Part shown: positions 1,511 through 24,865 of the stretch, in pieces
Position numbering within the stretch: the first letter of the stretch is position 1
Layout: each line of letters starts with the position of its first letter
Source of the DNA: a virus
DNA length: 25,838 nt
Reading direction: 5' to 3' (one strand)
IMG/VR virus record: IMGVR_UViG_3300024518_002350
Coordinates: 1-25,838 of that record
Translations under genes and position numbers: made by a program
The notes under the pieces: generated by a model
Databases searched by the model: none
What the model was told of the DNA's origin: nothing
What the model saw: the letters and a program-made list of their open reading frames with translations, nothing else

Positions 1511-2623
1511 TTGAAGGCCAACTCAGTAGATGCGTTGGTTTGCGATCCGCCCGCAGGTATTTCCTTTATGGGCAAGGGTTGGGATAGCAACAAAGGCGGT
1601 TCAAAGGAATGGATCAAATGGCTAACGCAGGTTATGGGCGATAGCTATAGAGCGCTGAAGCCAGGGGCGCATGGCTTGGTTTGGGCAATCCCTCGTACGT
1701 CTCATTGGACGGCGCAAGCGCTAGAGGCAGCCGGGTTTGAGATACGCGATGTAGTGACGCATCTATTCGGCAGCGGATTTCCTAAAAGCCTGAATATTGG
1801 TAAGGCGATTGATAAGGCGGCGGGCGTTGGCGCAAAGGCCGAAAAGGGTTTTAATGTGGCGGGGCAAGGGATCGGATTGAATCCCAACAAATCATTAAGA
1901 TCGGATCACCCGGACTATATAAAACCTAGAGGCATAACCCCCGAAGCTAAACAGTGGGATGGCTTCGGCACCGCACTTAAACCCGCATCGGAGCATTGGA
2001 TACTAATCCGCAAGCCGATATCCGAAAAGACGGTAGCTAAGAACGTGCTCAAGTGGGGCGTTGGCGGGTTGAATATTGATGAGTGTCGGGTTGGGACGGA
2101 TGAAAAATTATCTTTCGGCAGCCGGGAAATAGGCGATGGGGTAAAATACGGGACTATGCCCGCTCAAAACCTCCAAGGCCGCTTCCCCGCCAATCTCATT
2201 CTATCCGGTGACGCGCCGAAGATGCTTGATGAGCAGAGTGGTGAGCGTAAAAGCGCCGGGAAATATTTAGATATAGAAAACGCCAAAAAAGGCGGGAATG
2301 GTATGTTTGCGGGGGGCAATACAACAAACCGATATGCTGGCGATTCCGGCGGCGCCTCTAGATTCTTCTATACTCCCAAGGCTTCTAAATCAGATCGGGG
2401 CGACGGCAATAATCATCCAACCGTCAAATCAATCGCGCTTATGGAATACCTTATCAAACTAGTAACGCCCCCCGGCGGTACCGTCTTAGATCCATTCATG
2501 GGTAGCGGATCTACCGGCGTAGCTGCCCGCAATCTAGATATGGGCTTTATTGGTATTGAGAAGGAATTAGAATACTATCAGATAGCACGTAATCGAATTG
2601 AGGTAAGCAATGGAAGAATCTAA
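1511..2623 (+). CDS. Orphan DNA methyltransferase (N4-cytosine/N6-adenine type, DPPA motif)
   Basis: An S-adenosylmethionine-dependent DNA methyltransferase of the circularly ordered class: the catalytic motif comes first (DPPAG, residues 12-16) and the cofactor motif last (VLDPFMGSGSTG, from residue 325), preceded by HPTVKS and TPPGG. DPPA replaces the common DPPY; a DPPAG..FMGK..WD pattern is, from memory, a recurrent phage subgroup. No restriction endonuclease lies beside it, so it probably protects phage DNA or marks it for packaging or regulation. The TTG at 1511 is the first conventional start, but the frame is open upstream and encodes NLIHGDSIAKLI just before it, which fits the conserved N-terminus of such enzymes. 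An ATT at 1463, six bases after GGGAG, is a candidate true start. The gene overlaps the next by 14 bases. Confidence 0.85.
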   Translation: MKANSVDALVCDPPAGISFMGKGWDSNKGGSKEWIKWLTQVMGDSYRALKPGAHGLVWAIPRTSHWTAQALEAAGFEIRDVVTHLFGSGFPKSLNIGKAIDKAAGVGAKAEKGFNVAGQGIGLNPNKSLRSDHPDYIKPRGITPEAKQWDGFGTALKPASEHWILIRKPISEKTVAKNVLKWGVGGLNIDECRVGTDEKLSFGSREIGDGVKYGTMPAQNLQGRFPANLILSGDAPKMLDEQSGERKSAGKYLDIENAKKGGNGMFAGGNTTNRYAGDSGGASRFFYTPKASKSDRGDGNNHPTVKSIALMEYLIKLVTPPGGTVLDPFMGSGSTGVAARNLDMGFIGIEKELEYYQIARNRIEVSNGRI

Positions 2624-4751
2624 GAGACCAGATAAGGAAATATACGCGGCAACGTCTGCCACGTTCAAAGAGCAAACGGAAAAGCGTCTATCGTTAGATC
2701 CCGACTCCTTTTTCGAACCATGGAATCCCGACGATCTAGTGCGCAAGCGGGCGGACTTCTCACTCTATGAAGAAATGCTCAAAGATGACCAGGTAAACGT
2801 TGCCCTATCCTTGAAAAAGGATCTGGTGTTGGCGGGCGGCTTCGATTTCATTCCGGGCGAATCCGATCAAGACGATATCGTAGATGATCTAAACGTTGCC
2901 CTGCGGGAAGATCCCGATTGGTCATTCGATGAGATGCTAGAAGAAATCCTTAGCGCCTACGAATTTGGTCTATCGGTATCTGAAAAGCTATTTGCTACTA
3001 GGGAAGATGGCAGCATGACGTTGCGCCATATCAAGACACGTCACCCCGGCCCTTGGCTATTTCATCAAGATCAGGCCGGCAATATCGAGCGATACGAACA
3101 GCAGGGCGTATCCGGCGATATCGATCCGAAGTCTTTGATTCATTATGTCAATCGTAGGAAATTCCAAAATCCATATGGCATATCGGATCTAAGGGCGGCC
3201 TATAATGCCTGGTTCATTAAAAAGCACATTACGCGTTGGTATGCGATCTTTATCGAAAAGGCCGGCTCGCCGGTACCCATTGGCAAATACGATGCGAGCA
3301 AGGCAAGCAACCAAGCCAGGACGGACCTATACAATTCTCTGAAACGGTTTCAAACCCGTAGCGCATTGGTTATTCCTAATGAATTCGAGGTTGAATTCTT
3401 GGAAGCCAAATCCAATGGAGAAGCGTTTGCCAAGGGTATTGACCTGTTCAATATGTTTATCGGTCGATCCCTCATGATTCCAGACCTTCTAGGGTTTGCC
3501 GGCTCCGAGACGGGGGGCGGTAGTTTCAGTCTAGGCGCCAACCAAATGCAGATCTTCTATAAGCATATCGAGAGACGGCGCGCCCTACTAGAACGGATCG
3601 TCAATAAGGAAATCGTTTGGCCAATCGTCGTAGCCAATCATGGCTTCATAGATAACTATCCCAAATTCAAGCTACGCCCAATCACTCAAGAACAGATCAT
3701 AGATAGCGCTAAGGTCTGGCTAGAGGCGGTTAAGGCGCGCGCATGGCGTCCGACCGATGAGGAAATCAACCACTTCAAAGAAATTGTTAACTTCCCGGCA
3801 ACCGATACCGACGATATCGAACGTATCGAAGGGCCGGAAGAAATGCCTACCGCACCGGAAGCCGAAGATAGTGACGAAGATGCAAGCCCCGAGGTTGAGC
3901 GTATCGAAGTAGCAGACGGCGACGATTCGACGTTTGCAACCAAGACGCGTCCATTCAAACCAACGAAGGGGCCATTTGCGGCCAAGGTCAATTTCCCGGC
4001 TATCGAGAAGTCATTAGACGCCGGCCTTGAGGGATTCAAGGCAACTAGCCATAGGCTTGCCGACGATATATTCCAGGATCTAAAGGACCAAATCAACCGG
4101 AAGCGCATAACTCAGACGGGCAACCTTGCCAAAATGGAGACGGTCAAACCTCGCAAAACGTCTAAGCTGCGGACGCTACTAAATCGTGAGCTAAAAGCCA
4201 TGTATAGGAAGGGGCAGGAAATCGCCCAAACGGAACTGTTTAAGAGCAATTTTGCCAAGCCGATTGTAGATGAAAAATTCCTAGAAGTAATCGAGGAAGA
4301 AAATATCAACATGGTTAAAGACTGGGAATTTGCAATGTCTAAAAATGCCCGGATTGCTGTAACGCAGGCCATCAAAGACGGCAAGTCTATAGAGGATGTA
4401 ATCGAATTTACAAACGATAAGAGCAAAACATCTCTAGATCTTTACGCCCGAACGAAGATGACAGAAGTAATGAATAAGGGCCGATTGAACTTTTTTCAAA
4501 ATAGCAACGTAGTAGCAGGCTACCAATATAGTGCGGTTATGGATGATCGCACGACGGATATTTGCCGGGGGCTACATGGCAAGAAATTCAAGGAAGGTAC
4601 CGAGCCGGTTCCGCCGATGCACTTCAATTGCCGTTCAATACTGGTGCCCATAACGATATTTGAAGAATTCAAGCCAGATGAGAAGGTCGGCAAGGTACCC
4701 ATCGAGGGATTCATTGAAGATAAAAGGGGCGCAGGCTTCCCTAAACAATAG
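2610..4751 (+). CDS. Portal protein (DUF935, Mu gp29-like) fused to gpF/SPP1 gp7-like head morphogenesis domain
   Basis: Residues 1 to about 395 resemble DUF935/Mu gp29 portals: dodecameric rings at the capsid vertex through which DNA passes. A strongly acidic, low-complexity stretch (about 398-440, rich in D, E and P) links this to a second part. The C-terminus carries the signature of the Mu gpF/SPP1 gp7 minor head protein family: a tyrosine-rich strand, then MDDRTTDICRGLHG and PPMHFNCRS (about 668-676), with paired Cys and His residues. In Mu these are two separate genes; here one 713-residue chain carries both. Its ATG lies inside the methyltransferase end and the structural genes follow, so it belongs to the head module. 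The domain boundaries are estimates by eye. Confidence 0.85.
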   Translation: MEESKRPDKEIYAATSATFKEQTEKRLSLDPDSFFEPWNPDDLVRKRADFSLYEEMLKDDQVNVALSLKKDLVLAGGFDFIPGESDQDDIVDDLNVALREDPDWSFDEMLEEILSAYEFGLSVSEKLFATREDGSMTLRHIKTRHPGPWLFHQDQAGNIERYEQQGVSGDIDPKSLIHYVNRRKFQNPYGISDLRAAYNAWFIKKHITRWYAIFIEKAGSPVPIGKYDASKASNQARTDLYNSLKRFQTRSALVIPNEFEVEFLEAKSNGEAFAKGIDLFNMFIGRSLMIPDLLGFAGSETGGGSFSLGANQMQIFYKHIERRRALLERIVNKEIVWPIVVANHGFIDNYPKFKLRPITQEQIIDSAKVWLEAVKARAWRPTDEEINHFKEIVNFPATDTDDIERIEGPEEMPTAPEAEDSDEDASPEVERIEVADGDDSTFATKTRPFKPTKGPFAAKVNFPAIEKSLDAGLEGFKATSHRLADDIFQDLKDQINRKRITQTGNLAKMETVKPRKTSKLRTLLNRELKAMYRKGQEIAQTELFKSNFAKPIVDEKFLEVIEEENINMVKDWEFAMSKNARIAVTQAIKDGKSIEDVIEFTNDKSKTSLDLYARTKMTEVMNKGRLNFFQNSNVVAGYQYSAVMDDRTTDICRGLHGKKFKEGTEPVPPMHFNCRSILVPITIFEEFKPDEKVGKVPIEGFIEDKRGAGFPKQ

Positions 4752-4760
4752 AGGTACATC

Positions 4761-6062
4761 ATGGCAATGCCAAGTGAATTAAATCGACGCGAACACGACA
4801 AGTTTAAAGAAGGGCCATGCGGCGAAACGCGAGTACAAAGCTATAGCCTGTTTGAGCCGGATGGCGGATCGCTAGACGCTTTCGGAAACCTCCGCGTTGC
4901 CGAGCCGTTTACTATTTTCGATACCAAACAAATTACCGACAATCTGCCGCTACTCTATGACGACCAGCAAGTATCGGGAACGGCTACCACGTCCGTCTAT
5001 ACTACCAATACGGCGGCAAGCGTCATGGGCGTTGCAGCCAGCACAACCGGCGAGCGGGTCCGGCAATCGTTTGAGCGTCACAACTACCAACCCGGAAAAA
5101 GCCAACTAATCCGGCTTACCGGTACATTTGCAAACCAGTCGGCCGACCTTACAGGCATTACGTCGCGCATCGGTCTATTCGATGGCAACAACGGAATTTT
5201 ATTTTCCTACGAAGGCGGTACCATGAATGCCGTCGTGCGGTCGAACACAAGCGGAACGCCCGCCGACGATAAGGTTGCGCAGTCTAGTTGGAATATAGAC
5301 AAGATGGATGGCACCGGGGCGTCTGGCATTACCTTGGATTTTACCAAGACTTTAATCATGCTGATCGATATGGAATGGCTTGGGGTTGGCCGCGTCCGAG
5401 TCGGATTTGTGGCAGCAGGCGCCCCGATATATTGCCATCAATTCCTTCATTCGAATGTCAATAGCCTGGTATATATGTCGACGCCTAACTTACCGGTTCG
5501 CTATTCGATCGCCAATGACGGTACCGGCCTTGCTACTACGATGCAGCATATTTGTAGCTCTGTAGTTAGCGAAGGCGGGCAGCAAGAAAACGGAATAGTC
5601 GTTGGCATTAGTAACGATACTACCGAAGTGACGGCGACGAATGCAGATACTATCTATGCACTAAAGGGCATACGCCTAAATGCGAGCTACCTAGATCATA
5701 CCGTCAAGGTATTGCGAACCACGGTGTTGATGACTGCCGCAGGCGTATTCGAATGGCTTCTAATATTCAACCCAACCGTGGCCGGTACATTCGCCTATTC
5801 GCAAGTGACGAATACCGCAATTGATGAGGCTACCGGAGTTAGTACAAATACAGTGACGGGCGGAACTGTAATTGCTTCGGACTACGGCGCAAGTACGGGA
5901 TCGGGCGGCAACGCATCGGGCGGAAGTGGCGACGCGATCGATAACGCGCTAAAATTAGGGTCGGCGATAAATGGCACTCAAGATACGATCGTTCTATGTG
6001 TTCGGGCGACGACGAGCGGTAGAACGTTTTTGGGCGGACTAACAGTGAAACAAATTAGCTAA
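4761..6062 (+). CDS. Phage structural protein with DAFG(N)LRV-type N-terminus
   Basis: A 433-residue protein whose N-terminal segment LDAFGNLRVAEPFTIFD (38-54) recalls a family of virion proteins seen in many environmental tailed phages. The rest is rich in Gly, Ser, Thr and Ala with alternating hydrophobic residues, as expected for beta-rich structural folds, and has no enzymatic motif I can identify. It lies between the portal and the protease, so a head-associated or surface role is most likely. The ATG follows GAGGT at a good distance, ten bases after the portal stop. The function is uncertain: it may be a head fibre or another capsid surface protein. Confidence 0.6.
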   Translation: MAMPSELNRREHDKFKEGPCGETRVQSYSLFEPDGGSLDAFGNLRVAEPFTIFDTKQITDNLPLLYDDQQVSGTATTSVYTTNTAASVMGVAASTTGERVRQSFERHNYQPGKSQLIRLTGTFANQSADLTGITSRIGLFDGNNGILFSYEGGTMNAVVRSNTSGTPADDKVAQSSWNIDKMDGTGASGITLDFTKTLIMLIDMEWLGVGRVRVGFVAAGAPIYCHQFLHSNVNSLVYMSTPNLPVRYSIANDGTGLATTMQHICSSVVSEGGQQENGIVVGISNDTTEVTATNADTIYALKGIRLNASYLDHTVKVLRTTVLMTAAGVFEWLLIFNPTVAGTFAYSQVTNTAIDEATGVSTNTVTGGTVIASDYGASTGSGGNASGGSGDAIDNALKLGSAINGTQDTIVLCVRATTSGRTFLGGLTVKQIS

Positions 6063-16193: not shown

Positions 16194-17566
16194 TGGCAGA
16201 AACCCCAAGTTTAATACAGCAAATCAAGGCGCCAACGTCTAAAGTGTTTCGGCGCTTCCTGGTAAAGAGGCGCCAAGTATCCGATGGCCTATTCGAAGCC
16301 AACTGGCAAGATCTAACGAAGTTTGTAATGCGTTGGGGCCGCTTCCGTTGGTCGGTAGATACGCCCCGCTATGGCGATCTGCGGCTTGATAACGCCAACC
16401 TAAAGGTATTGAACGTAGAGGGTACATTCAACCCTAACGATAACGACGATTCATTCTGGTCTGGCTACGACGATATGCAACGTAGCCTAGTAAAGATTGA
16501 AGCCGGCTTCATTCATCAAACCCTATCGGCGGGCGGCGTCTGGACGAATACCGAATTCCCTAGTGCGCCTGCGATGTGGGTTGGGATCATATCGGGCGAT
16601 ATCTTCCTTACAGGTCAATCGGAGGTAAACATACCCCTTCGGCCTATGTCGCAAGTGTTTCGAGATTTCCCGTCTAGTGATTTGACTAGCTCAGGTTGGG
16701 CAGCACCGTCTAGCGGACTAAGTGCCGGCAGTTGGGTTGAGACGTTGCGAGATATGACAGACGGATCCGGCGTCTATACCTTCCGGCAATTCATCGGAAC
16801 GGGCGCGGCAAATGATTGGACGCTCGCAGCCGGGGGCAACCTCTACGCCAACCTAGACAGCAATAGCGCCGAAGATCTTCACGGCCTAGATTGCTGGAAC
16901 GTTACCGAGAAGATTGCCAACGCCGAGCAAGCCCTAGTCTACCTCAACAACAAAGGGCAATTTGTTTGGCAATCCAAGACGGCAACCGCTTCGGTGCAAT
17001 ACGAATTCCACGGGCAGGGATCCAACAACCGCACGTATGGCATGAACATGAAACGCATCAACCGATACGGGAAACGCCTCACGGCCTTCTATAGCCGCGT
17101 AGCCGTCAAATACGATAAGGCAGATACTAATACTTCATTTGTAAATACGGCCCTACCCTTTGCGGTAGCCGGATCCAATACGGCTTGGAATCTTGGCCAT
17201 AGAACGTTTTCAATCGACAACTTCTGGTTGGCAGATAGCGCAGCCGCCGCATCGGTAGCTGCATCGGTATTCTCGGACGTGTCTAGCCAGGACGAAGAAA
17301 TAGAATTCACTACTTCCTTCATACCGCACTTAACCCTAATGGATCGGGTAAGCATAACCTACGATGCAACGGATTTCGTTTCCAACAAATCCCTATGGGA
17401 TACTCGGGATTGGGCAGCCGGCCCTACCTCGAATACTGCCGACGATCTAATCTGGGATGCAGGGCGGGGCGATGCAATCATACTCCAATCGACTAACTTC
17501 AATCTGATATCAATCGATATCGACCTCGATAGGCTAGAGACTACATTTATTGGTAGGCAACTTTAA
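16193..17566 (+). CDS. Tail hub/tail-tip protein candidate (gp27/Tal-like)
   Basis: A 457-residue protein translationally coupled to the preceding gene (TAATG). It has an N-terminal basic segment (KVFRRFLVKRRQ), then a beta-rich body with paired strands around WQDLTKFVMRWGRFRW and a DNANLKVLNVEGTFNP segment recalling gp27-type hub domains. The C-terminal third (RVSITYDATDF onwards to LDRLETTFIGRQL) again resembles hub-domain strands. No peptidase or lysozyme motif could be picked out. It is the last plus-strand gene, and its stop overlaps that of the opposing gene. The family call is moderate. Confidence 0.6.
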   Translation: MAETPSLIQQIKAPTSKVFRRFLVKRRQVSDGLFEANWQDLTKFVMRWGRFRWSVDTPRYGDLRLDNANLKVLNVEGTFNPNDNDDSFWSGYDDMQRSLVKIEAGFIHQTLSAGGVWTNTEFPSAPAMWVGIISGDIFLTGQSEVNIPLRPMSQVFRDFPSSDLTSSGWAAPSSGLSAGSWVETLRDMTDGSGVYTFRQFIGTGAANDWTLAAGGNLYANLDSNSAEDLHGLDCWNVTEKIANAEQALVYLNNKGQFVWQSKTATASVQYEFHGQGSNNRTYGMNMKRINRYGKRLTAFYSRVAVKYDKADTNTSFVNTALPFAVAGSNTAWNLGHRTFSIDNFWLADSAAAASVAASVFSDVSSQDEEIEFTTSFIPHLTLMDRVSITYDATDFVSNKSLWDTRDWAAGPTSNTADDLIWDAGRGDAIILQSTNFNLISIDIDLDRLETTFIGRQL

Positions 17567-17901
17567 AGAATCTTTGCTTCTGCGCCGCTCGCAATATGGA
17601 ATGTTGAATTTGTCGGCACGTCCATATCACCCAAGCAGGCCAACCTAGCCGTAGATGTAGCTAGGTCGAACGTGCTTGCAGTTGGAATTGTAAAGTAGGA
17701 ACACATAAACGATGTGTTGCCCGTAATCGTCGTGCTGGTAGCTGTACTTAGCCGTTCGACTCTATAGCCGGTAGCCCAATGATCAAACATGCCGCCGGCA
17801 ATCATGTCGCCCGTAACGGTTGCAATCATGTTATTCATATCGGCGGCGCGCGCTCGGGTACCGGCAACGAATGAACTAGGACTGCTGGCTAAGATACCCA
17901 T
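17563..17901 (-). CDS. Short beta-rich fibre-like virion protein, candidate
   Basis: A 112-residue protein on the strand opposite to the tail operon. Its N-terminus, SSPSSFVAGTRARAADMNNM (residues 7-26), follows the pattern F-x-x-G-T-x-A-x-A-x-D-x-N common at the start of phage tail fibre proteins. The C-terminal half alternates Thr, Ser and hydrophobics (FTIPTASTFDLATSTARLA and FHIASGAEAKIL), typical of a beta-helix or trimeric tip. It may be a short fibre or collar protein. The start follows AGGGGAGTAATAGCC. It is the last gene of the minus operon, five bases after the methyltransferase gene, and its TAA interleaves with the tail hub stop. Confidence 0.55.
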   Translation of the reverse strand: MGILASSPSSFVAGTRARAADMNNMIATVTGDMIAGGMFDHWATGYRVERLSTATSTTITGNTSFMCSYFTIPTASTFDLATSTARLACLGDMDVPTNSTFHIASGAEAKIL

Positions 17902-17906
17902 GGCTA

Positions 17907-19217
17907 TTACTCCCCTGGCATTGGTAGATGCGCCATATCATTATACGCCCAAGTGGTAGCTTGCGCAAATGATGCGACGTTGGCGCCTTTGAGCATACGC
18001 GTGAACTCTAGAGCCTTGGCGATATGCTGCGCCCGATCTTCCTCAGATTTGGCTTTTTTGGCCATCGTGCGGTTGAGGTTGGCCATACCCATAAAACCCT
18101 CTTGACAGTTGGGGCGCACTTCTAAGAGCCGTTTGAGGTAGCCGGCGCACTCTTCAAACTTATCGTATCTCGCGGCTACATCGGCGGCGAATAACAACCC
18201 ATCCCCGCACTTATCATCTAGGGTAAGCCACGGTTGGATATGCTCCGCATCGATTGCTGCCCAACCCTTTTTGTGCATTTCTGCCCTAGAGTGTTCGTAT
18301 ACGGCGCGACGGGCTACCGGGAAGTGCGGCCAAATCTTAGTAGCCGCTACGAAATCCTTTTTCGTTAATGCCAAATCTGCCTGCTGTACGGCTTGCAGCA
18401 TCTTCAATACATCGTGAGCATTTGGAACGGGTAGGGCTTCCCTGGTTTCCTCCCCAACCTCTAGCATGTAGGCGCTGTCGTAGGTCCAGTGGTTTTCCTT
18501 AACGATCTTGAATCCGGCGTCGCGTATCAGCTTTTCGAAGTGCGGCCGCGTCCATACGTTGCAATGATCCGGATGATAGTAGTATTCGATATCCCAACCG
18601 CCTACGCCGAAATTGGATAGCTTGCCAAACCATGTGGGCACTGCTAGGTAGAATTTGCCGCCTGGTTTCAATGCCTTTTTGTAGCGTTGCAATTCGATCT
18701 GCGGATCATACATATGCTCAAGCACTTTGTAGGACGTGATTAGATCGTATTGCTTGGATTCATCGAAATCTTCCTTGAGGTTTAGCCCAAACTCGTGATG
18801 AGCAACGCGCCTATAAGATAGGGTTAGCTCTACCCCGTTTAGATCCGCGTCCGGAAATAGGGGCGCACCGTCCTGCGCCCGTGGGCCATTCTTCCACCAT
18901 TGTAGAAATAGGCCATAGGCGCCGCCAACGTCCGAGATAACCGGATCTTTCTTACCTTCTTTGGCCCATTCGCCTATTAGGTCCTGCAAGAAATCGGCAT
19001 GGTAATGCAGTTTGTTTTGGCCGCTATACAAATTTGCTATCTGCGGCGAGCCGCCCCGGTAGTCCTTGCGGTAGTATTCCAAGACGGCGGCTTTATCTTT
19101 GTACTTGGTAGGGTAGCCGACGAATCCGCAACCCTGGCATAGTTCCATGCCGCTAGGCTTGATTCGGTATCGGTCTACGTTCTGCCATTTGATACCGTTA
19201 CATATTGGGCAATTCAT
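17907..19217 (-). CDS. Zinc-binding class I SAM methyltransferase with C-terminal helical repeat region
   Basis: A 436-residue protein in three parts. A small zinc site CPIC...CQGC (C3, C6, C27, C30) opens the protein. A Rossmann methyltransferase domain follows, with motif I SDVGGAYG (95-102) and YDLITSYKVLEHMYDP (157-172) plus LKPGGKFYLAVP, which is the Methyltransf_23-like pattern. Residues about 285-436 are helical and could be TPR-like. Related proteins methylate sugars or lipids in surface glycan loci. Here it lies downstream of the NeuB-like and cytidylyltransferase genes, so O- or C-methylation of the phage-made sugar is a reasonable idea; the substrate cannot be told. The start follows AAGGAAGAAGAAAT. 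Confidence 0.75.
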   Translation of the reverse strand: MNCPICNGIKWQNVDRYRIKPSGMELCQGCGFVGYPTKYKDKAAVLEYYRKDYRGGSPQIANLYSGQNKLHYHADFLQDLIGEWAKEGKKDPVISDVGGAYGLFLQWWKNGPRAQDGAPLFPDADLNGVELTLSYRRVAHHEFGLNLKEDFDESKQYDLITSYKVLEHMYDPQIELQRYKKALKPGGKFYLAVPTWFGKLSNFGVGGWDIEYYYHPDHCNVWTRPHFEKLIRDAGFKIVKENHWTYDSAYMLEVGEETREALPVPNAHDVLKMLQAVQQADLALTKKDFVAATKIWPHFPVARRAVYEHSRAEMHKKGWAAIDAEHIQPWLTLDDKCGDGLLFAADVAARYDKFEECAGYLKRLLEVRPNCQEGFMGMANLNRTMAKKAKSEEDRAQHIAKALEFTRMLKGANVASFAQATTWAYNDMAHLPMPGE

Positions 19218-19232
19218 ATTTCTTCTTCCTTC

Positions 19233-19445
19233 TTAGTTTGCGTACAGTTGAGACGTTTGAGGGAGCCACCAAGCTATAACCGGTACCGCTTGCGGATCAT
19301 ATTCTATAGCTGCAAATGCCCGGAATTTGGCCCGTAGATGTTTCAATTCATCAATTTCAAACATCTTCGTAAGCCGGCAAGTAACCATGATTTTAGAATC
19401 AAGGCGATCCCGTTCTTTGTAATCGTAGCCAACTAGCACTAGCAT
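19233..19445 (-). CDS. Small hypothetical protein
   Basis: A 70-residue protein, MLVLVGYDYKERDRLDS at its start, with an excellent GGAGGTAAGGAA binding site directly upstream. That site overlaps the end of the tiny membrane-protein frame 19450-19560. Its sequence reads as a short alpha/beta fold (a strand, a basic turn, a helix, a strand ending in VPVIAWWLP). I do not recognise it. It lies fifteen bases before the methyltransferase gene, within the same operon. Confidence 0.6.
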   Translation of the reverse strand: MLVLVGYDYKERDRLDSKIMVTCRLTKMFEIDELKHLRAKFRAFAAIEYDPQAVPVIAWWLPQTSQLYAN

Positions 19446-19449
19446 TTCC

Positions 19450-19560
19450 TTACCTCCGCAGTATGTAAATTAGAGCGATGCCAACCGCAAGGATTAGCGT
19501 CAGGCGCAACCCCCGGAATATATCTTCAATGGCTTCCGCTTCATGCTTTTCTTTATCCAT
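19450..19560 (-). CDS. Tiny single-pass membrane protein (36 residues)
   Basis: A reading frame too short for routine gene calls. It begins MDKEKHEAEAIEDIFRG, a charged, negatively biased head, then a hydrophobic stretch LTLILAVGIALIYIL and ends with RR, so a single transmembrane helix with a basic C-terminus is predicted. Its ATG overlaps the end of the NeuB-like gene by eight bases (ATGGATAA), repeating the overlap style of four other junctions in this operon, which is the main reason to believe it. A small holin-associated, spanin-like or membrane-anchoring role is possible but not shown. Confidence 0.5.
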   Translation of the reverse strand: MDKEKHEAEAIEDIFRGLRLTLILAVGIALIYILRR

Positions 19561-20239
19561 TGATCCGATTTATCAACCTCGCAAACTCCATAGGATTCGC
19601 AGCATGTATCGTATCCCGATATGTCACGCCTTCAAACTCTACCGGACAGCCATCGGTTAGATGTTTCTCGATAACGGGTAGCGGCGCCTTTTCAGATAGC
19701 TCTACTAGATCCTGCGTCTTGATCCCGTGATGAGATACGCCGATGCGCCTGCCGTAATGTTTGCGAATTGCCTTGAACGTCTTTAGATCGATCTGTTCGT
19801 TGTAGCCAGTAGCGTAAAGAATCGTCGCATGGTTGCAGATTACTTCCGGGCGTAATGCCTTCATTGATACGATCGTATTCGGCCTATCAAATCGCCGGAA
19901 CGTGTCTGCACCAAGGGCTTCGAAGCGGGCGGCGTGCATCTTCTTATAGTCTTGGAATTTGTAGAGGTAGGATAGCCCGCGAGTAAGGACGGTATAGAAA
20001 ACGGGTATTCCGATTTCGTCGCCATATTCCATTAGCTCGCGGTATTCGGCGTAGCTCAATGCACATTGCCTGTAGAATCCATCGGGCATAGATCCGACGC
20101 CGATCATATCTTCGGCACGGAATGCCTGCCCCTTTACCGCATCGGCTCCCGAATACTTGGCAAGGCGGATTAGTTCTTTGGCCTTGGCCATCGATCCGCA
20201 ATGGATGTTTGATATTTCGGCGATAAAGTAAGTGCTCAA
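19553..20239 (-). CDS. NeuB-like (sialic-acid synthase family) enzyme without SAF domain
   Basis: NeuB-family enzymes condense phosphoenolpyruvate with an amino sugar to make nonulosonic acids such as sialic, legionaminic or pseudaminic acid. This 228-residue chain shows the barrel blocks: FIAEISNIHCGS (5-16), GADAVKGQ (31-38), KMHAARFEAL (100-109), IGVSHHG (166-172, where SDHT is usual) and VIEKHLT (189-195). It ends with a PMEFARLI helix and lacks the C-terminal SAF (antifreeze-like) domain of full NeuB proteins of about 340 residues. KGQ replaces the usual KFQ. The start is TTG 20239, overlapping the upstream TGA (TTGA), behind AAGGAACGG. The substrate is unknown. Confidence 0.75.
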   Translation of the reverse strand: MSTYFIAEISNIHCGSMAKAKELIRLAKYSGADAVKGQAFRAEDMIGVGSMPDGFYRQCALSYAEYRELMEYGDEIGIPVFYTVLTRGLSYLYKFQDYKKMHAARFEALGADTFRRFDRPNTIVSMKALRPEVICNHATILYATGYNEQIDLKTFKAIRKHYGRRIGVSHHGIKTQDLVELSEKAPLPVIEKHLTDGCPVEFEGVTYRDTIHAANPMEFARLINRING

Positions 20240-20610
20240 AACCGTTCCTTTTTGATATGCGCTTCAATAGCCAAATCCCTTGCCCGCTTTTCGTCGATCG
20301 TATGGCCATACTCGCCTTTGTTGAATGAATTATCTAGGGCCATAGGATTATTCAACTTCATTATATCCTTCATGGTCCGTTCTATGCTGCCTTGGACGCG
20401 CACGAACCAATCGCACATTTTGGGGGTGTTCATTTTTTGCTTGGCCAATTCATTCATTCCCGATTGAAACCGGTAGGCCATCTTTTCCAATTCCTTTAGA
20501 TCCCGATTGACTAGGCAGCGCGTTAGATATTGGTTCCATTGCTCGTGATGCACGTTGCCATACATCCATAGCAGGTCGATCGGTTGTTGTTTGCCTTTTT
20601 GATCAGCCAT
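20236..20610 (-). CDS. Hypothetical protein between sugar genes
   Basis: A 124-residue, mainly helical protein rich in Lys, Met, Asn and Gln, with no motif I recognise. It reads as a small soluble helical bundle (HEQWNQYLTRCLVNRDLKEL, then VQGSIERTMKDIMKL). Its ATG overlaps the upstream glycosyltransferase stop by eight bases (ATGGCTGA) and its own stop overlaps the NeuB-like start by four, so it is translated in strict coupling with both. That context suggests an accessory role to the sugar enzymes, or an unrelated phage protein carried in the same operon. Confidence 0.65.
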   Translation of the reverse strand: MADQKGKQQPIDLLWMYGNVHHEQWNQYLTRCLVNRDLKELEKMAYRFQSGMNELAKQKMNTPKMCDWFVRVQGSIERTMKDIMKLNNPMALDNSFNKGEYGHTIDEKRARDLAIEAHIKKERF

Positions 20611-21988
20611 CCACTAACCCCCCGCCCGTTATGCCCGCGTCCAGCTTCGCCTTGATCGCCGCACGTTGCGGGCTATCCGTTCGGCTCATGCTATCTTGAG
20701 AATGGGTATAAAACCATGTAGGCGAATTATCCCAATAGGAAATATTGAGCGTATCTTTGGCCCGCTCAAAGAAATCCAAACCTTCGTAGCCGCGTAGCTT
20801 CTCTGTGAATTGGAAATGCCTCATCGCTCGCGTATCAAACAATGCGCAACCTACATGGTGATGTGTCCGGGGGTTGCCAACGTCGTCATAGTTACCGTCT
20901 CGGTAGGTCGAGTATAGGGCGTCACATTTGCGATCTAAGATTCCTTTGAATAACCAATAGGCGCCCATAGCAAATATCCTATCGTCCGCATCGATCCGCA
21001 TAATGTAGCGGCCTCTAGCCATCTTCAAAGCAATATTGGAGCTACTAGCCAGACCGATATTCTTTTCGTTTACTACTAGGCGCCCCGTGAATTCCTCATC
21101 TTCTAGTATCCGCTCTAGGGTATCGTCGGTAGATGCGTCGTCTACAATTATGTATTCCGAAGATTCGATATTGCTAGACGCTTCGGCAACGCTCTCAATA
21201 GTGCGGTTGATTGTATCGGCACCGTTGTAGACACATGAGTAGAACGTGATCAGAGGAAGCCGGTTGATATCCTTTAGAACGGGCTTGCGATCTAGCATTT
21301 GTAGAACGTCCGCCATAGGCCGATCAGGATCGCCCCGCAATACAACCTTCATTAAGGTCTCATCTTCCGGGTAGTCTAGTAACAACCTGGCATCGGATTG
21401 CGCATAGGGCGCCGGCTTATAGTCGATCATTTCCGGCTTGAAGTATCGAATGGCATAGCTCACATGCTCTACATTCTGCCCCGCAAACTTCTCGGCAGCC
21501 TGATCTAGCAATTTCCTAGAGAAGATTTCGAAGCCGCAGCCGTCCGCTAGATGCGAGCTATAGAGATATTGATTCTGGTTCGTATACTGGGATAGGGCGT
21601 CCAGTATGATATCGGGATCGACTAAGATTTTGTCATGACATACGCGGATAATTACATCTAGGTTGTTGCGTTTGGCAACGTCGGCCATTCGATGCAACGG
21701 GCTTCCGGCATGGCCTGGTTCCAACCACGTTCCGAAGACGCCGCTCGGATAGGCGTGATGAATGCCATGAAACCCATAGTTCCTATCGGGCCATTCGGTA
21801 TTCAAGTGGTATTCGTATTCGTCGTATTCTTCGTCGGGAACCGCCAAATATACGCCTAGCTCGGTTTTTTCTAATCGCCGCAATAGATTGACGATAACAG
21901 GTTGCCCCGCAATCTCACGAAACGCTTTTCGCGGTAGGCGTTGGGATTGGAGGTGCGAGCACAAAATCACGCCTACCTTGCGAGTCAT
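20603..21988 (-). CDS. SpsF-like cytidylyltransferase fused to GT2 glycosyltransferase
   Basis: Two enzymes in one 461-residue chain. Residues 1 to about 185 match SpsF/CMP-sugar synthetase-like nucleotidyltransferases: VGVILCSHLQSQRLPRKAF (5-23), IIRVCHDKILVDPDII (113-128) and the DGCGFEIFS block (149-157). Residues about 246-430 are a GT-A family 2 glycosyltransferase: ITFYSCVYNGADTI (247-260), IIVDDASTDDT (280-290), KNIGLASSSNIAL (309-321) and the metal-binding RIDADD (331-336). The product would both activate a sugar with CTP and transfer it, or feed two separate reactions. The start is ATG 21988, overlapping the upstream TGA as ATGA; the longer frame to 22075 lies inside the previous gene. 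The acceptor is unknown. Confidence 0.8.
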   Translation of the reverse strand: MTRKVGVILCSHLQSQRLPRKAFREIAGQPVIVNLLRRLEKTELGVYLAVPDEEYDEYEYHLNTEWPDRNYGFHGIHHAYPSGVFGTWLEPGHAGSPLHRMADVAKRNNLDVIIRVCHDKILVDPDIILDALSQYTNQNQYLYSSHLADGCGFEIFSRKLLDQAAEKFAGQNVEHVSYAIRYFKPEMIDYKPAPYAQSDARLLLDYPEDETLMKVVLRGDPDRPMADVLQMLDRKPVLKDINRLPLITFYSCVYNGADTINRTIESVAEASSNIESSEYIIVDDASTDDTLERILEDEEFTGRLVVNEKNIGLASSSNIALKMARGRYIMRIDADDRIFAMGAYWLFKGILDRKCDALYSTYRDGNYDDVGNPRTHHHVGCALFDTRAMRHFQFTEKLRGYEGLDFFERAKDTLNISYWDNSPTWFYTHSQDSMSRTDSPQRAAIKAKLDAGITGGGLVDG

Positions 21989-23163
21989 ATCTTTACCGCC
22001 TTCTCGCCTGTGAATTCTTCGAAGCGTTTGATGATCACAGACACGTAGTGCGGATCGATTTCCATTCCAAAGCATTTGCGCTTGGTCTTTTCGCAGGCGA
22101 TTAGGGTTGAGCCTGAGCCGAGGAATAGATCGACGATTAGAGTTTTGTCCTTACCCCACCGCCTAAAGAATTCATCTATTAATTTAACTGGTTTTTGCGT
22201 TGGGTGGACGCGCTTTGCGCCGTCGTTTTTTTTGTGATGGCCAAACGGCCCAAACCAAACCGCCTTGATAATCTTTAGGCCATGAATCTTTTTAGACCAG
22301 CATAATTCAAAATCGGATCCGGCGACGCGGGCGCTATCTTCGGTGGTTCGTTTGTCCCAAACCATCCAACCATGTTCGTTTCCGGGTGGAAGAAAATTCG
22401 CGTAATTGTTTGCGCCAAACAAAAATATTTCTTCGGTATCTGGAAAGTGATCTAGTATTATATTGGGGTTGATAACGCTATGATCCCACGGACTATCACG
22501 GTAGGTGTTGCGTTTTAGCTGCCTTCCGTCAGTTAGCTTCTCATTAGACGGCTTCCTAGAAGTAACTTCCCCTATACTTATTCCATACGGCGGATCAGTG
22601 AAAACCATATCCGCCTTCTCGCCTGCCATCAATTTATCTACATCTTCCTTCGATGTAGAATCGCCGCACATGATTCGGTGATTGCCTAGCTGCCAGATAT
22701 CGCCCCGTTGTACTCCATAGGGGTTTTCTTCTACTTCCGGCACTTGATCGTCTTTTTCACTAGGTTCGGCGCCGGCGTTTTCTTCCTCTAGCATTTTGTC
22801 GAGATTGATATACGCAACGTCTCGCAATTCGTCGTCTAGCGCGGCCAATTGTTTATCTAGGGCGTCTTGATCCCAAGTGGCTAGTTCGGCGGTTCGGTTA
22901 TCTGCAATGGCATAGGCCGTCATATCCGGCCCGTCTAACTCACTTTCAACTACCGAGATATCTTGCCAACCCAATTGCTTGGCCGCCTCCCAAGTTCCAT
23001 TGCCGGCCCTAATCACGCCATTGGCATCTACGACGATTGGTTTTTGTTGGCCGAAGCGTAGCAAACTAGCCTTGATAGCCGTTAGATTCACATGATCATG
23101 CAACCGCACATTGGCGGGATCCGGGAATAGGCTATCAATCAATACTGTTTTGCTGTCATTCAT
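21985..23163 (-). CDS. ParB-like domain fused to DNA methyltransferase
   Basis: Residues 1-95 form a ParB/sulfiredoxin-like domain: DPANVRLHDHVNLTAIKASL, then GQQKPIVV and RAGNGTWEAAKQLGW (52-66), the place of the usual GERR block. After an acidic linker (125-147) comes a DNA methyltransferase with catalytic DPPY (190-193), HPTQKP and the cofactor motif DLFLGSGST (345-353). This fusion is common in phages and conjugative elements and gives orphan methylation of a short site; the ParB-like part probably helps choose DNA, as nuclease activity is not obvious. It overlaps both neighbours by 8 and 4 bases. The start ATG follows AAGGAAGATGTAG. Confidence 0.9.
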   Translation of the reverse strand: MNDSKTVLIDSLFPDPANVRLHDHVNLTAIKASLLRFGQQKPIVVDANGVIRAGNGTWEAAKQLGWQDISVVESELDGPDMTAYAIADNRTAELATWDQDALDKQLAALDDELRDVAYINLDKMLEEENAGAEPSEKDDQVPEVEENPYGVQRGDIWQLGNHRIMCGDSTSKEDVDKLMAGEKADMVFTDPPYGISIGEVTSRKPSNEKLTDGRQLKRNTYRDSPWDHSVINPNIILDHFPDTEEIFLFGANNYANFLPPGNEHGWMVWDKRTTEDSARVAGSDFELCWSKKIHGLKIIKAVWFGPFGHHKKNDGAKRVHPTQKPVKLIDEFFRRWGKDKTLIVDLFLGSGSTLIACEKTKRKCFGMEIDPHYVSVIIKRFEEFTGEKAVKI

Positions 23164-23488
23164 CTACATCTTCCTTCACTAAACTCAACCAGGGCTTTCG
23201 CTCGGGCTCGGCGTTGTTGCTCTTCGATCTGCGCCATTCCTGCAAACGCTCCATTATCTCACCATAGTTTGTAGTCTGATCATGGGTAAGGCGCCGCCAA
23301 TTCATAATCGTACATGACAGCACGTTGAACTCATCAACCAACCCCTCTACGAATGTGCCTGGCAAAAACGGGCCATCGAAGGAAGCCATGAAGTTGGTCG
23401 GATGACAGGGGCCGAATTCCTCAAACTTGACATAGACGGATACTAGGTACCATCGTGCGGTAGGATCGAATTTGTGGGCGCTAGTCAT
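23156..23488 (-). CDS. Hypothetical protein between two DNA methyltransferases
   Basis: A 110-residue protein with aromatic strands at the N-terminus (ARWYLVSVYVKFEEFG) and a helical, Arg-rich centre (MNWRRLTHDQTTNYGEIMER). No known motif is seen. It overlaps the Dam-like gene's end and the ParB-methyltransferase start by eight bases each. Its sequence is unlike the methyltransferases and could be a small partner or DNA-binding factor; this is only a guess from context. Confidence 0.6.
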   Translation of the reverse strand: MTSAHKFDPTARWYLVSVYVKFEEFGPCHPTNFMASFDGPFLPGTFVEGLVDEFNVLSCTIMNWRRLTHDQTTNYGEIMERLQEWRRSKSNNAEPERKPWLSLVKEDVDE

Positions 23489-23915
23489 TCGATCCCTTCA
23501 AATAAAATAGGGCGGTATGCTGCCCGATGCCCTTACCTGCGGCTCCATCTTCGGTAGCGCACCATTTTACATCGCCGAGATTTCTAACGTATTCGGCCTT
23601 GGCTAATAACATCAAAACCCATTTCGGCAGGGGGTAGACCATGACTACATCGTTACCCTTGGATTGCTCTAGCAACGCCTTGCGCGCCCAAGCGGTCGGC
23701 CCTTTTTTCTTGCCTTCATGTATGATCGATCCAAAGGGCGGATTGATGTAGGTTGATTTGCCCCAATCGCAAGTTAGCCCATCAAACCCTTCCGGCAATG
23801 GATACGGGCAGCCATCAAAATCAAACCCATATTCGGATTGCAATTCGGCCAATAGATCGGGGGGCGTTAGCCAATAATGTTTGCCGTCTTTGTTGCCATT
23901 ATGAAAACCCATCAA
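23481..23915 (-). CDS. Dam-like phage N6-adenine DNA methyltransferase
   Basis: A 144-residue enzyme resembling the phage N6-adenine-methyltransferase family: WLTPPDLLAEL (15-25), a DFDGCPYP segment, and the catalytic NPPF (58-61) in DWGKSTYINPPFGS. The C-terminal GIGQHTALFYLKG strand suits the domain's end. It may protect phage DNA or alter its methylation state. It starts at ATG 23915, overlapping the radical SAM stop (TGATG), behind a G-rich site (GGGGTAGTTG). At 144 residues it is near the short end of the family. Confidence 0.8.
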   Translation of the reverse strand: MMGFHNGNKDGKHYWLTPPDLLAELQSEYGFDFDGCPYPLPEGFDGLTCDWGKSTYINPPFGSIIHEGKKKGPTAWARKALLEQSKGNDVVMVYPLPKWVLMLLAKAEYVRNLGDVKWCATEDGAAGKGIGQHTALFYLKGSND

Positions 23916-24865
23916 CTACCCCATGGTGCGCGATAGCCTGCATAGGATTCAAACGAACTGCAATTTTTGCAGGGATCGAATTTGAAGGCGTCGCCCGATT
24001 TGAGAGCGTCGCGCCAATACTTAGCCAATGCGCCGTTGAATAGTTCGGCCATCGACTTTTCATGAATATTGCCAAGCACGATTTTGTTGCGTAGGTCCGG
24101 GCAGCACATACCAGCATTTCCCTGCCAATCGAATACCAACCGCACATAGGCTTGCAAACATGGCGCACGTTTAGGCGCCCGCGTTTTGACCAGGATATCG
24201 GGATCTGTATCAGATTCCATACGCCCCCCAACTACATCGCGTATCGATACGGCTACACCCGGCCATCTGGCTTCGGCTAGTTCCGCGATCGGCTCGTCTT
24301 TGTTGGCTTGCGTTCGGACGGCCTGAATGACGATATCCGTTTTGCGATCAGGCCAATCATAGAATTTGTCTACATTGGCGGTTACTCGCTCCCAATTCGC
24401 ATTGATGCGTTGCCCTTCGGCTACCGAGGAATCGAATGAATCATAGGAAATCTTGACCTTCGTTTGGTGGGCAAGCCCTTCGAAGATATCGTCGCGCTCT
24501 GTTTGGAAGTTGAAATTGGAATTTGTAATGCGATCAATGTAGGTGCCGCCCTTGGCCAAGGAAGCCGCTAACGTCGCCGCATATGCGAAGCGTTTGTTTA
24601 GGGTAGCTTCGCCCCTATTATTCAATTTGATCGACGACACGCCCAATTCCGCGCCTTGAGTGATGATTTTTTCAATCGTCTCTGCTGCCATCAACTTCCG
24701 TTTGAACGGCAACGTTTTTTGGTTTTCCTTTGAGTGATAACAAAATGAACATGCTAGATCGCACCGTGAACTCAATTCAAGCATGATATCGACGGGCGCA
24801 CCTAAGGGTAAATGCCGGCCGTAACGGTATTTTAAACGGTATTTGAGGTAGTCGAGATTTTTCAT
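23912..24865 (-). CDS. Radical SAM enzyme with SPASM-like C-terminus
   Basis: Radical SAM proteins bind a 4Fe-4S cluster to split S-adenosylmethionine. From ATG 24865 the chain is 317 residues with the cluster motif CDLACSFC (C35, C39, C42). A C-terminal cysteine set, APCLQAYV, MCCPDL and DPCKNC, plus GNIHEKSMAELF, is typical of SPASM or twitch extensions that carry further clusters. Such proteins modify peptides, sugars or nucleotides, and this pattern is frequent near surface glycan or nonulosonate loci. Two alternative starts exist: ATG 24958, overlapping the previous gene by 44 bases, and an ATT at 24901, eight bases after a G6 run. ATG 24865 has no clear binding site. The true substrate cannot be told. 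Confidence 0.82.
   Translation of the reverse strand: MKNLDYLKYRLKYRYGRHLPLGAPVDIMLELSSRCDLACSFCYHSKENQKTLPFKRKLMAAETIEKIITQGAELGVSSIKLNNRGEATLNKRFAYAATLAASLAKGGTYIDRITNSNFNFQTERDDIFEGLAHQTKVKISYDSFDSSVAEGQRINANWERVTANVDKFYDWPDRKTDIVIQAVRTQANKDEPIAELAEARWPGVAVSIRDVVGGRMESDTDPDILVKTRAPKRAPCLQAYVRLVFDWQGNAGMCCPDLRNKIVLGNIHEKSMAELFNGALAKYWRDALKSGDAFKFDPCKNCSSFESYAGYRAPWGS

Follow-up and report, generated by a model that had tools for sequence, protein, structure and literature searches.

What is a tailed phage doing with a PEP-condensing synthase of the NeuB type and an SpsF-like cytidylyltransferase fused to a GT2 glycosyltransferase? The window, that is, the whole stretch of DNA analyzed here, is an IMG/VR phage contig of 25.8 kb, and an earlier note on it had proposed that the phage has, as an integral part, a dedicated sugar pathway in which PEP condensation is followed by CTP activation and transfer. 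This proposal is supported in that the unit recurs, as a larger cassette, on 36 contigs (the window among them), none of which derives from an isolate. We consider it probable, at roughly 0.58, that the product of the cassette is a 3-deoxy-2-ulosonic acid in CMP-activated form and that this sugar is joined to an acceptor within the host cytoplasm; a virion protein is the likeliest acceptor, for instance the adjacent tail-fibre-like protein.

The tailed-phage origin of the contig is clear from its terminase, portal, protease, capsid, and tail genes, which lie on the plus strand up to 17.6 kb. The minus strand carries an operon that spans 24865 to 17563, in which neighboring genes from the radical SAM (rSAM) gene to the NeuB-like gene share 4 to 8 nt, so that its description as tightly overlapping was correct. 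The functional unit does include the NeuB-like and SpsF-GT2 genes, as had been suggested, but is larger than the earlier note had it (about 17563-24865):

23912..24865, minus strand: radical SAM/SPASM-domain protein, first cassette gene (Pfam SPASM, Radical_SAM; homologues)
23481..23915, minus strand: relative of Dam-like DNA methyltransferases, inserted (PHROG 111, 5e-14; Pfam Dam, 2e-5, below cut-off)
23156..23488, minus strand: 110-aa protein with no assigned family, in the insertion (no match below E 0.01)
21985..23163, minus strand: ParB-N / N6-N4 DNA methyltransferase, in the insertion (PHROG 498, 3.5e-90)
20603..21988, minus strand: SpsF-like cytidylyltransferase-GT2 fusion, 461 aa (Pfam CTP_transf_3 and Glycos_transf_2; alignment; fold model)
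20236..20610, minus strand: 124-aa conserved cassette protein (group 1 phages have homologues; group 2 has a more divergent counterpart)
19553..20239, minus strand: short NeuB-like PEP-condensing synthase, barrel only (Pfam NeuB; AlphaFold2; PDB; active-site columns)
17907..19217, minus strand: SAM methyltransferase, Cys-rich at the N terminus and TPR-like at the C terminus (Pfam Methyltransf_23, 2.2e-15; homologues)
17563..17901, minus strand: short fibre-like protein, last in the operon (profile of fibre N termini, E 0.003)

Two of these starts were set by homology: the rSAM open reading frame extends to 24958, with the start chosen at 24865, and that of the fusion is 20603-22075 (minus strand), with homologues supporting the ATG at 21988 from which it had been read before. 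A possible open reading frame of 36 codons with a hydrophobic stretch (MDKEKHEAEAIEDIFRGLRLTLILAVGIALIYILRR), read by eye, overlaps the NeuB stop at 19450-19560 (minus strand), and a further DNA methyltransferase gene is found among the head genes (1511-2623, plus strand).

The overlap with a DNA methyltransferase gene had been taken as proof that the sugar genes are an integral part of the operon. The overlap is real, but it proves no integration because DNA methyltransferase genes are missing at that position in relatives; on comparison of sequences, those of the window are an insertion between the rSAM and SpsF-GT2 genes, outside the conserved cassette. The Dam-like relative has no counterpart at this place in relatives, and a relative of the ParB-N / N6-N4 methyltransferase lies just upstream of the cassette in L044 and L046. 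The presence of DNA methyltransferase genes inside the window operon, together with the phage glycosyltransferases known to decorate DNA (cited in PMC12619734), might suggest that phage DNA is hypermodified with a sugar acid by means of the cassette. We judge this very unlikely, given that the DNA methyltransferases stand apart from the conserved cassette and that no modified-base gene was recognized among the window open reading frames searched.

The 228-aa NeuB-like protein (19553-20239, minus strand, TTG start) matches Pfam NeuB (PF03102) at E 4.8e-10, with 39.7 bits against a cut-off of 22.1. Its AlphaFold2 model is a confident full (beta/alpha)8 barrel (pLDDT 93.7, pTM 0.91) with PseI (8h2c, 6ncs) and NmNeuB (1xuu) as top PDB matches, and structure prediction and fold search thus confirm the NeuB-like identity by placing the barrel closest to NeuB/PseI structures. 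In NmNeuB numbering, the protein keeps E25, the PEP-binding residues K53, K129, and S213, the metal His pair H215 and H236, and D247. Unusual changes, which count against the pathway proposed below, are E134 to R, at a position that is Q in most relatives, and D214 to H.

The label "nonulosonate," in contrast, is not supported. The window protein stops at the equivalent of NmNeuB residue 266, and because the C-terminal SAF/antifreeze domain is missing, it lacks Arg314, which in NmNeuB contacts ManNAc and is essential (PMC6795526). Relatives are likewise short (222 to 259 aa), and canonical-length NeuB is rare in phages. The window protein scores 56.9 bits against the N-acetylneuraminate synthase equivalog TIGR03569 (NCBIfam cut-off, 399.65) and 42.7 bits against the pseudaminate synthase equivalog TIGR03586 (cut-off, 340.25), and family searches of the window operon found none of the amino-sugar precursor genes (epimerase, aminotransferase, acetyltransferase). 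The missing domain, the changed E134, the scores below the equivalog cut-offs, and a synthase slot that is DAHP synthase (DAHPS)-like in other phages all speak against the label; what is supported as the product class is an ulosonic acid of unspecified chain length.

The second assignment, an SpsF-like cytidylyltransferase joined to a GT2 domain, stands. Both Pfam domains exceed their cut-offs (CTP_transf_3, PF02348, 33.6 bits against 22.6; GT2, PF00535, 69.5 bits against 23.3), and the fold model (pLDDT 88.9) agrees in having two domains, which match 6oew (cytidylyltransferase, TMt 0.8) and 6p61/2z86 (GT2). Across a 24-member alignment, SpsF and GT2 are joined in every main-group member, the RxPxK nucleotide motif of the SpsF domain is nearly invariant, and the DxD motif of the GT2 domain, here DADD, is conserved. 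KdsB/NeuA-type cytidylyltransferases use 3-deoxy-2-ulosonic acids as substrates, whereas less is known about SpsF itself. More distant phage loci (L051 and L111, in G036 and G025) have separate SpsF and GT2 genes along with an rSAM and a DAHPS-like gene, and G025, with additional GT2-like matches, may hold a larger glycan cluster.

How widespread is the cassette? Single-sequence queries of IMG/VR and INPHARED returned no direct relatives of the window NeuB-like, rSAM, or methyltransferase proteins and only generic GT2 matches for the fusion. The cassette was first reached through a related phage, identified by its capsid, and two-sequence profiles, followed by profile and motif scans of IMG/VR. 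This 44-kb phage (G008; capsid 61% identical to that of the window) encodes on one strand, as taken from open reading frame lists rather than gene-by-gene annotation, the rSAM/SPASM protein, SpsF-GT2 (44% identical), a 124-aa homologue, a synthase, and the methyltransferase-TPR protein, and this order (rSAM/SPASM, SpsF-GT2, 124-aa protein, PEP-condensing synthase, methyltransferase-TPR) is that of the cassette. The count of 36 refers to contigs with both rSAM and fused SpsF-GT2; it includes two near-identical-looking pairs (L033/L034 and L057/L070), the metagenome-assembled genome (MAG) contig L108, and L047, in which the cassette genes are scattered across some 12 kb, and some of the contigs terminate within the cassette. 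The 35 other carriers all appear to be uncultivated phages. The cassette stays together at varied sites, namely, after tail-fibre genes, upstream of terminase (L041-L044), in the terminase-portal gap (L108), or inverted, as in the window.

Beyond viral collections, an rSAM profile found no relative in 84,980 genomes. A DNA-motif scan of genomes for RAGTYP matched a single MAG contig, which is phage DNA in which terminase and portal flank the cassette, and a search for the fusion in 295 genomes of one phylum gave a single full-length match, the phage contig L108. The term "phage-restricted" therefore has the rSAM scan and the RAGTYP motif as its whole basis, with IMG/VR as the source biasing toward viral copies. 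L108/L109 (JASEHK010000003.1), a tailed-phage contig whose cassette separates terminase from portal, was binned in an Endomicrobiia MAG, a possible clue to its host. Searches of an open-access library found no paper that describes this cassette.

NeuB-type and DAHP-synthase-type enzymes both make 3-deoxy-2-ulosonic acids, and the synthase slot of the cassette is filled by a NeuB-like enzyme in some phages and by a DAHPS-like enzyme in others. Among 20 whole records searched, 7 have only the NeuB-like form, 12 only the DAHPS-like form, 1 has both, and none has neither (Fisher p 1e-4, kinship ignored). On a tree of SpsF-GT2, which was built with a quick method and has many weak branches, 7 changes in the NeuB label are required, of which starred branches force at least 4. 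The close sisters L026 and L112 carry different synthase types even though they are 72% identical in rSAM, 70% in SpsF-GT2, 54% in the small protein, and 67% in the methyltransferase (over 60 aa at a contig end). The aligned NeuB-like proteins (222 to 259 aa) keep the catalytic, PEP, and metal residues of NmNeuB except in L032 and L036, both of which have both synthases: the NeuB-like copy in L036 lacks E25, K129, S213, H215, H236, and D247, and that in L032 lacks Q55, S154, and D247. We read the exchange of synthases and the decayed NeuB-like copies, as they appear in these alignments, as functional displacement. That the synthase was swapped for another family several times points to a real but undescribed pathway.

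The DAHPS-like protein matches DAHP_synth_1 at E 1.1e-44 and 1zco at E 2.5e-78 and retains the metal and PEP residues. Yet KPRTS, the E4P-binding motif of type I-beta DAHP synthases, is gone from all aligned phage DAHPS-like proteins, most of which have RAGTY and the remainder RAGTF, SAGTY, or VYGTY. In a bacterial comparison (phylum sample), 8 of 9 DAHPS loci had KPRTS, and the ninth gave no match. The DAHPS matches in the isolate-phage collection were rejected as cassette enzymes; they come from records that lack annotation, and many of these bear the names of Listeria, Staphylococcus, or Enterococcus phages. At about 40% identity, the matches look like ordinary bacterial DAHPS. The closeness of the phage DAHPS-like proteins to type I-beta enzymes could also mean that the synthases serve as auxiliary metabolic genes, stimulating the shikimate pathway or sialic acid metabolism of the host, and have nothing to do with virion chemistry. 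This is hardly probable at all: apart from the replaced KPRTS, the NeuB-like form occupies the same slot, and both types stay with SpsF-GT2 in main-group phages.

Because the NeuB-like form is barrel-only, without the Arg314 domain, and the E4P motif is missing from the DAHPS-like form, the simplest reading of these sequences is that the acceptor would be an aldose other than those of Neu5Ac-type or DAHP chemistry. The L025 cassette contains genes for a UDP-sugar dehydrogenase and an epimerase, which are compatible with sugar supply, and L047 contains an epimerase gene.

The other cassette proteins are less easily placed. The rSAM protein matches SPASM (1.2e-9) and, under Pfam's cut-off, Radical_SAM (1.1e-5), and is 45 to 52% identical to 16 phage homologues, with an invariant CxxxCxxC; we found no precedent for a radical SAM enzyme in such a sugar pathway. 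Homologues of the methyltransferase-TPR protein, for which Pfam detects TPR in the relative L041, terminate the cassette in relatives. The 124-aa protein, for which PHROGs gave nothing convincing, has homologues between fusion and synthase in group 1 phages. Many radical SAM proteins with a SPASM domain mature peptides, although the family matches here are weak, and one might thus imagine that the rSAM protein and the methyltransferase mature a peptide or protein in a RiPP-like manner, with the 124-aa protein, which is conserved together with the cassette, as the substrate and the sugar genes as mere decoration. However, the 124-aa protein is divergent, charged, and without an evident core peptide, and SpsF-GT2 and a PEP synthase recur just as constantly as the rSAM protein, which makes this scenario quite improbable.

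Returning to the ulosonic acid pathway, we propose that the NeuB-like enzyme, or the DAHPS-like enzyme replacing it, would condense PEP with a host-derived aldose to a 3-deoxy-ulosonic acid, which the SpsF domain would activate with CTP to a CMP-sugar and the fused GT2 domain would transfer onto a protein, plausibly a virion fibre. The rSAM/SPASM and methyltransferase-TPR proteins might modify the sugar or aid acceptor recognition, and the 124-aa protein may also have a part in the pathway. There is precedent for proteins modified in the cytoplasm with Kdo or nonulosonic acids (PMC7591256) and for virions glycosylated by phage transferases (cited in PMC12619734).

The case for the fibre comes from gene neighborhoods. 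In most group 1 phages, a gene of a fibre-like family with an N terminus like FTxxTKARASQVNxNFxxxRGH lies immediately, or almost immediately, upstream of the cassette, and in L028 and L031 a fibre-like gene follows it at once. PHROGs label a few of these proteins tail fibre or baseplate related and leave the remainder unmatched, and the window fibre-like gene is short and matches the family of its relatives weakly. Group 2 phages of at least 33 kb encode the family away from the cassette, which, in group 2 as well as in L108, is found close to terminase and apart from the fibre gene; the target is therefore uncertain, as fibre adjacency is not universal.

Possibly, the same sugar is instead placed on the host surface, by lysogenic or infection-time conversion, where it would block other phages or alter receptors. 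Tail genes on one side and lysis genes on the other often flank the cassette, and this interval is a common site for host-surface-altering genes. An open reading frame in G008 resembles a tyrosine integrase by eye, which may mean that one carrier, if not more, is temperate, and phage enzymes altering bacterial nonulosonic acids are known (PMC12053666). On the other hand, the cassette has no recurrent membrane gene of the flippase, polymerase, or GtrA/GtrB-like kind, the GT2 domain is modeled as a plain soluble fold, and the rSAM protein had no relatives in the genomes scanned, where prophages would be expected. We therefore favor the virion as the target and keep the host surface as a rival that we think rather unlikely. 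More tentatively, the cassette may constitute a virus-only pathway to an undescribed 3-deoxy-ulosonic acid, in which a DAHP-synthase-derived enzyme displaces a NeuB-derived one, radical-SAM tailoring takes place, and activation and transfer onto the phage's own fibre are fused.

If the proposed pathway is correct, some phages do more than borrow host sugars in that they encode a dedicated pathway leading to an acidic sugar in activated form, and their virions or hosts would bear a chemically distinct decoration that affects adsorption and host recognition. The repeated exchange of two PEP synthases in one slot amounts to a natural experiment on which chemistry is selected, and the activating-transferring fusion, the altered DAHP synthase, and the barrel-only NeuB lend themselves to direct assay.

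Among known systems, the phage barrel resembles NeuB/PseI/SpsE (1xuu, 8h2c, 1vli) along its full length (VIA Z 20 to 24, rmsd 2.5 to 2.9 A, about 20% identity) and shares their metal His pair, PEP lysines, and catalytic Glu and Asp, but differs in its size of about 222 to 259 aa and in having neither the SAF/antifreeze domain with Arg314 nor E134. The alternative synthase aligns along its length with type I-beta DAHP synthases (1zco, 1rzm) and shares their metal and PEP residues, but has RAGTY for KPRTS and a cytidylyltransferase-glycosyltransferase cassette as its setting. A bacterial cluster, L177 (G323:C62:1-8000), likewise places a DAHPS-like gene with an altered motif (KPCTF) next to a GT2-cytidylyltransferase fusion (L177:247-1755); here, the domain order is reversed, neither rSAM nor methyltransferase-TPR occurs within the 8 kb read, and the 83-kb contig is chromosomal. 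A second GT2 protein of this cluster (3302-4795) has a C-terminal part that looks cytidylyltransferase-like by eye and has no Pfam match. As far as gene content can tell, the cluster supports the link between DAHPS-like enzymes and cytidylyltransferase-GT2 outside phages. Flagellin O-glycosylation by FlmG and Maf (PMC7591256) similarly involves a soluble transferase, an ulosonic-acid donor, and a TPR recognition part, whereas in the phages the TPR is on the methyltransferase, the transferase is a GT2 fused to SpsF, and the genes are viral. Finally, mycobacteriophages also use phage-encoded transferases on virion proteins (Freeman et al. 2023, as cited in PMC12619734), and in comparison with these, a phage with the cassette would additionally make and activate the sugar itself, by a dedicated route of a kind that the passage citing this work does not mention.
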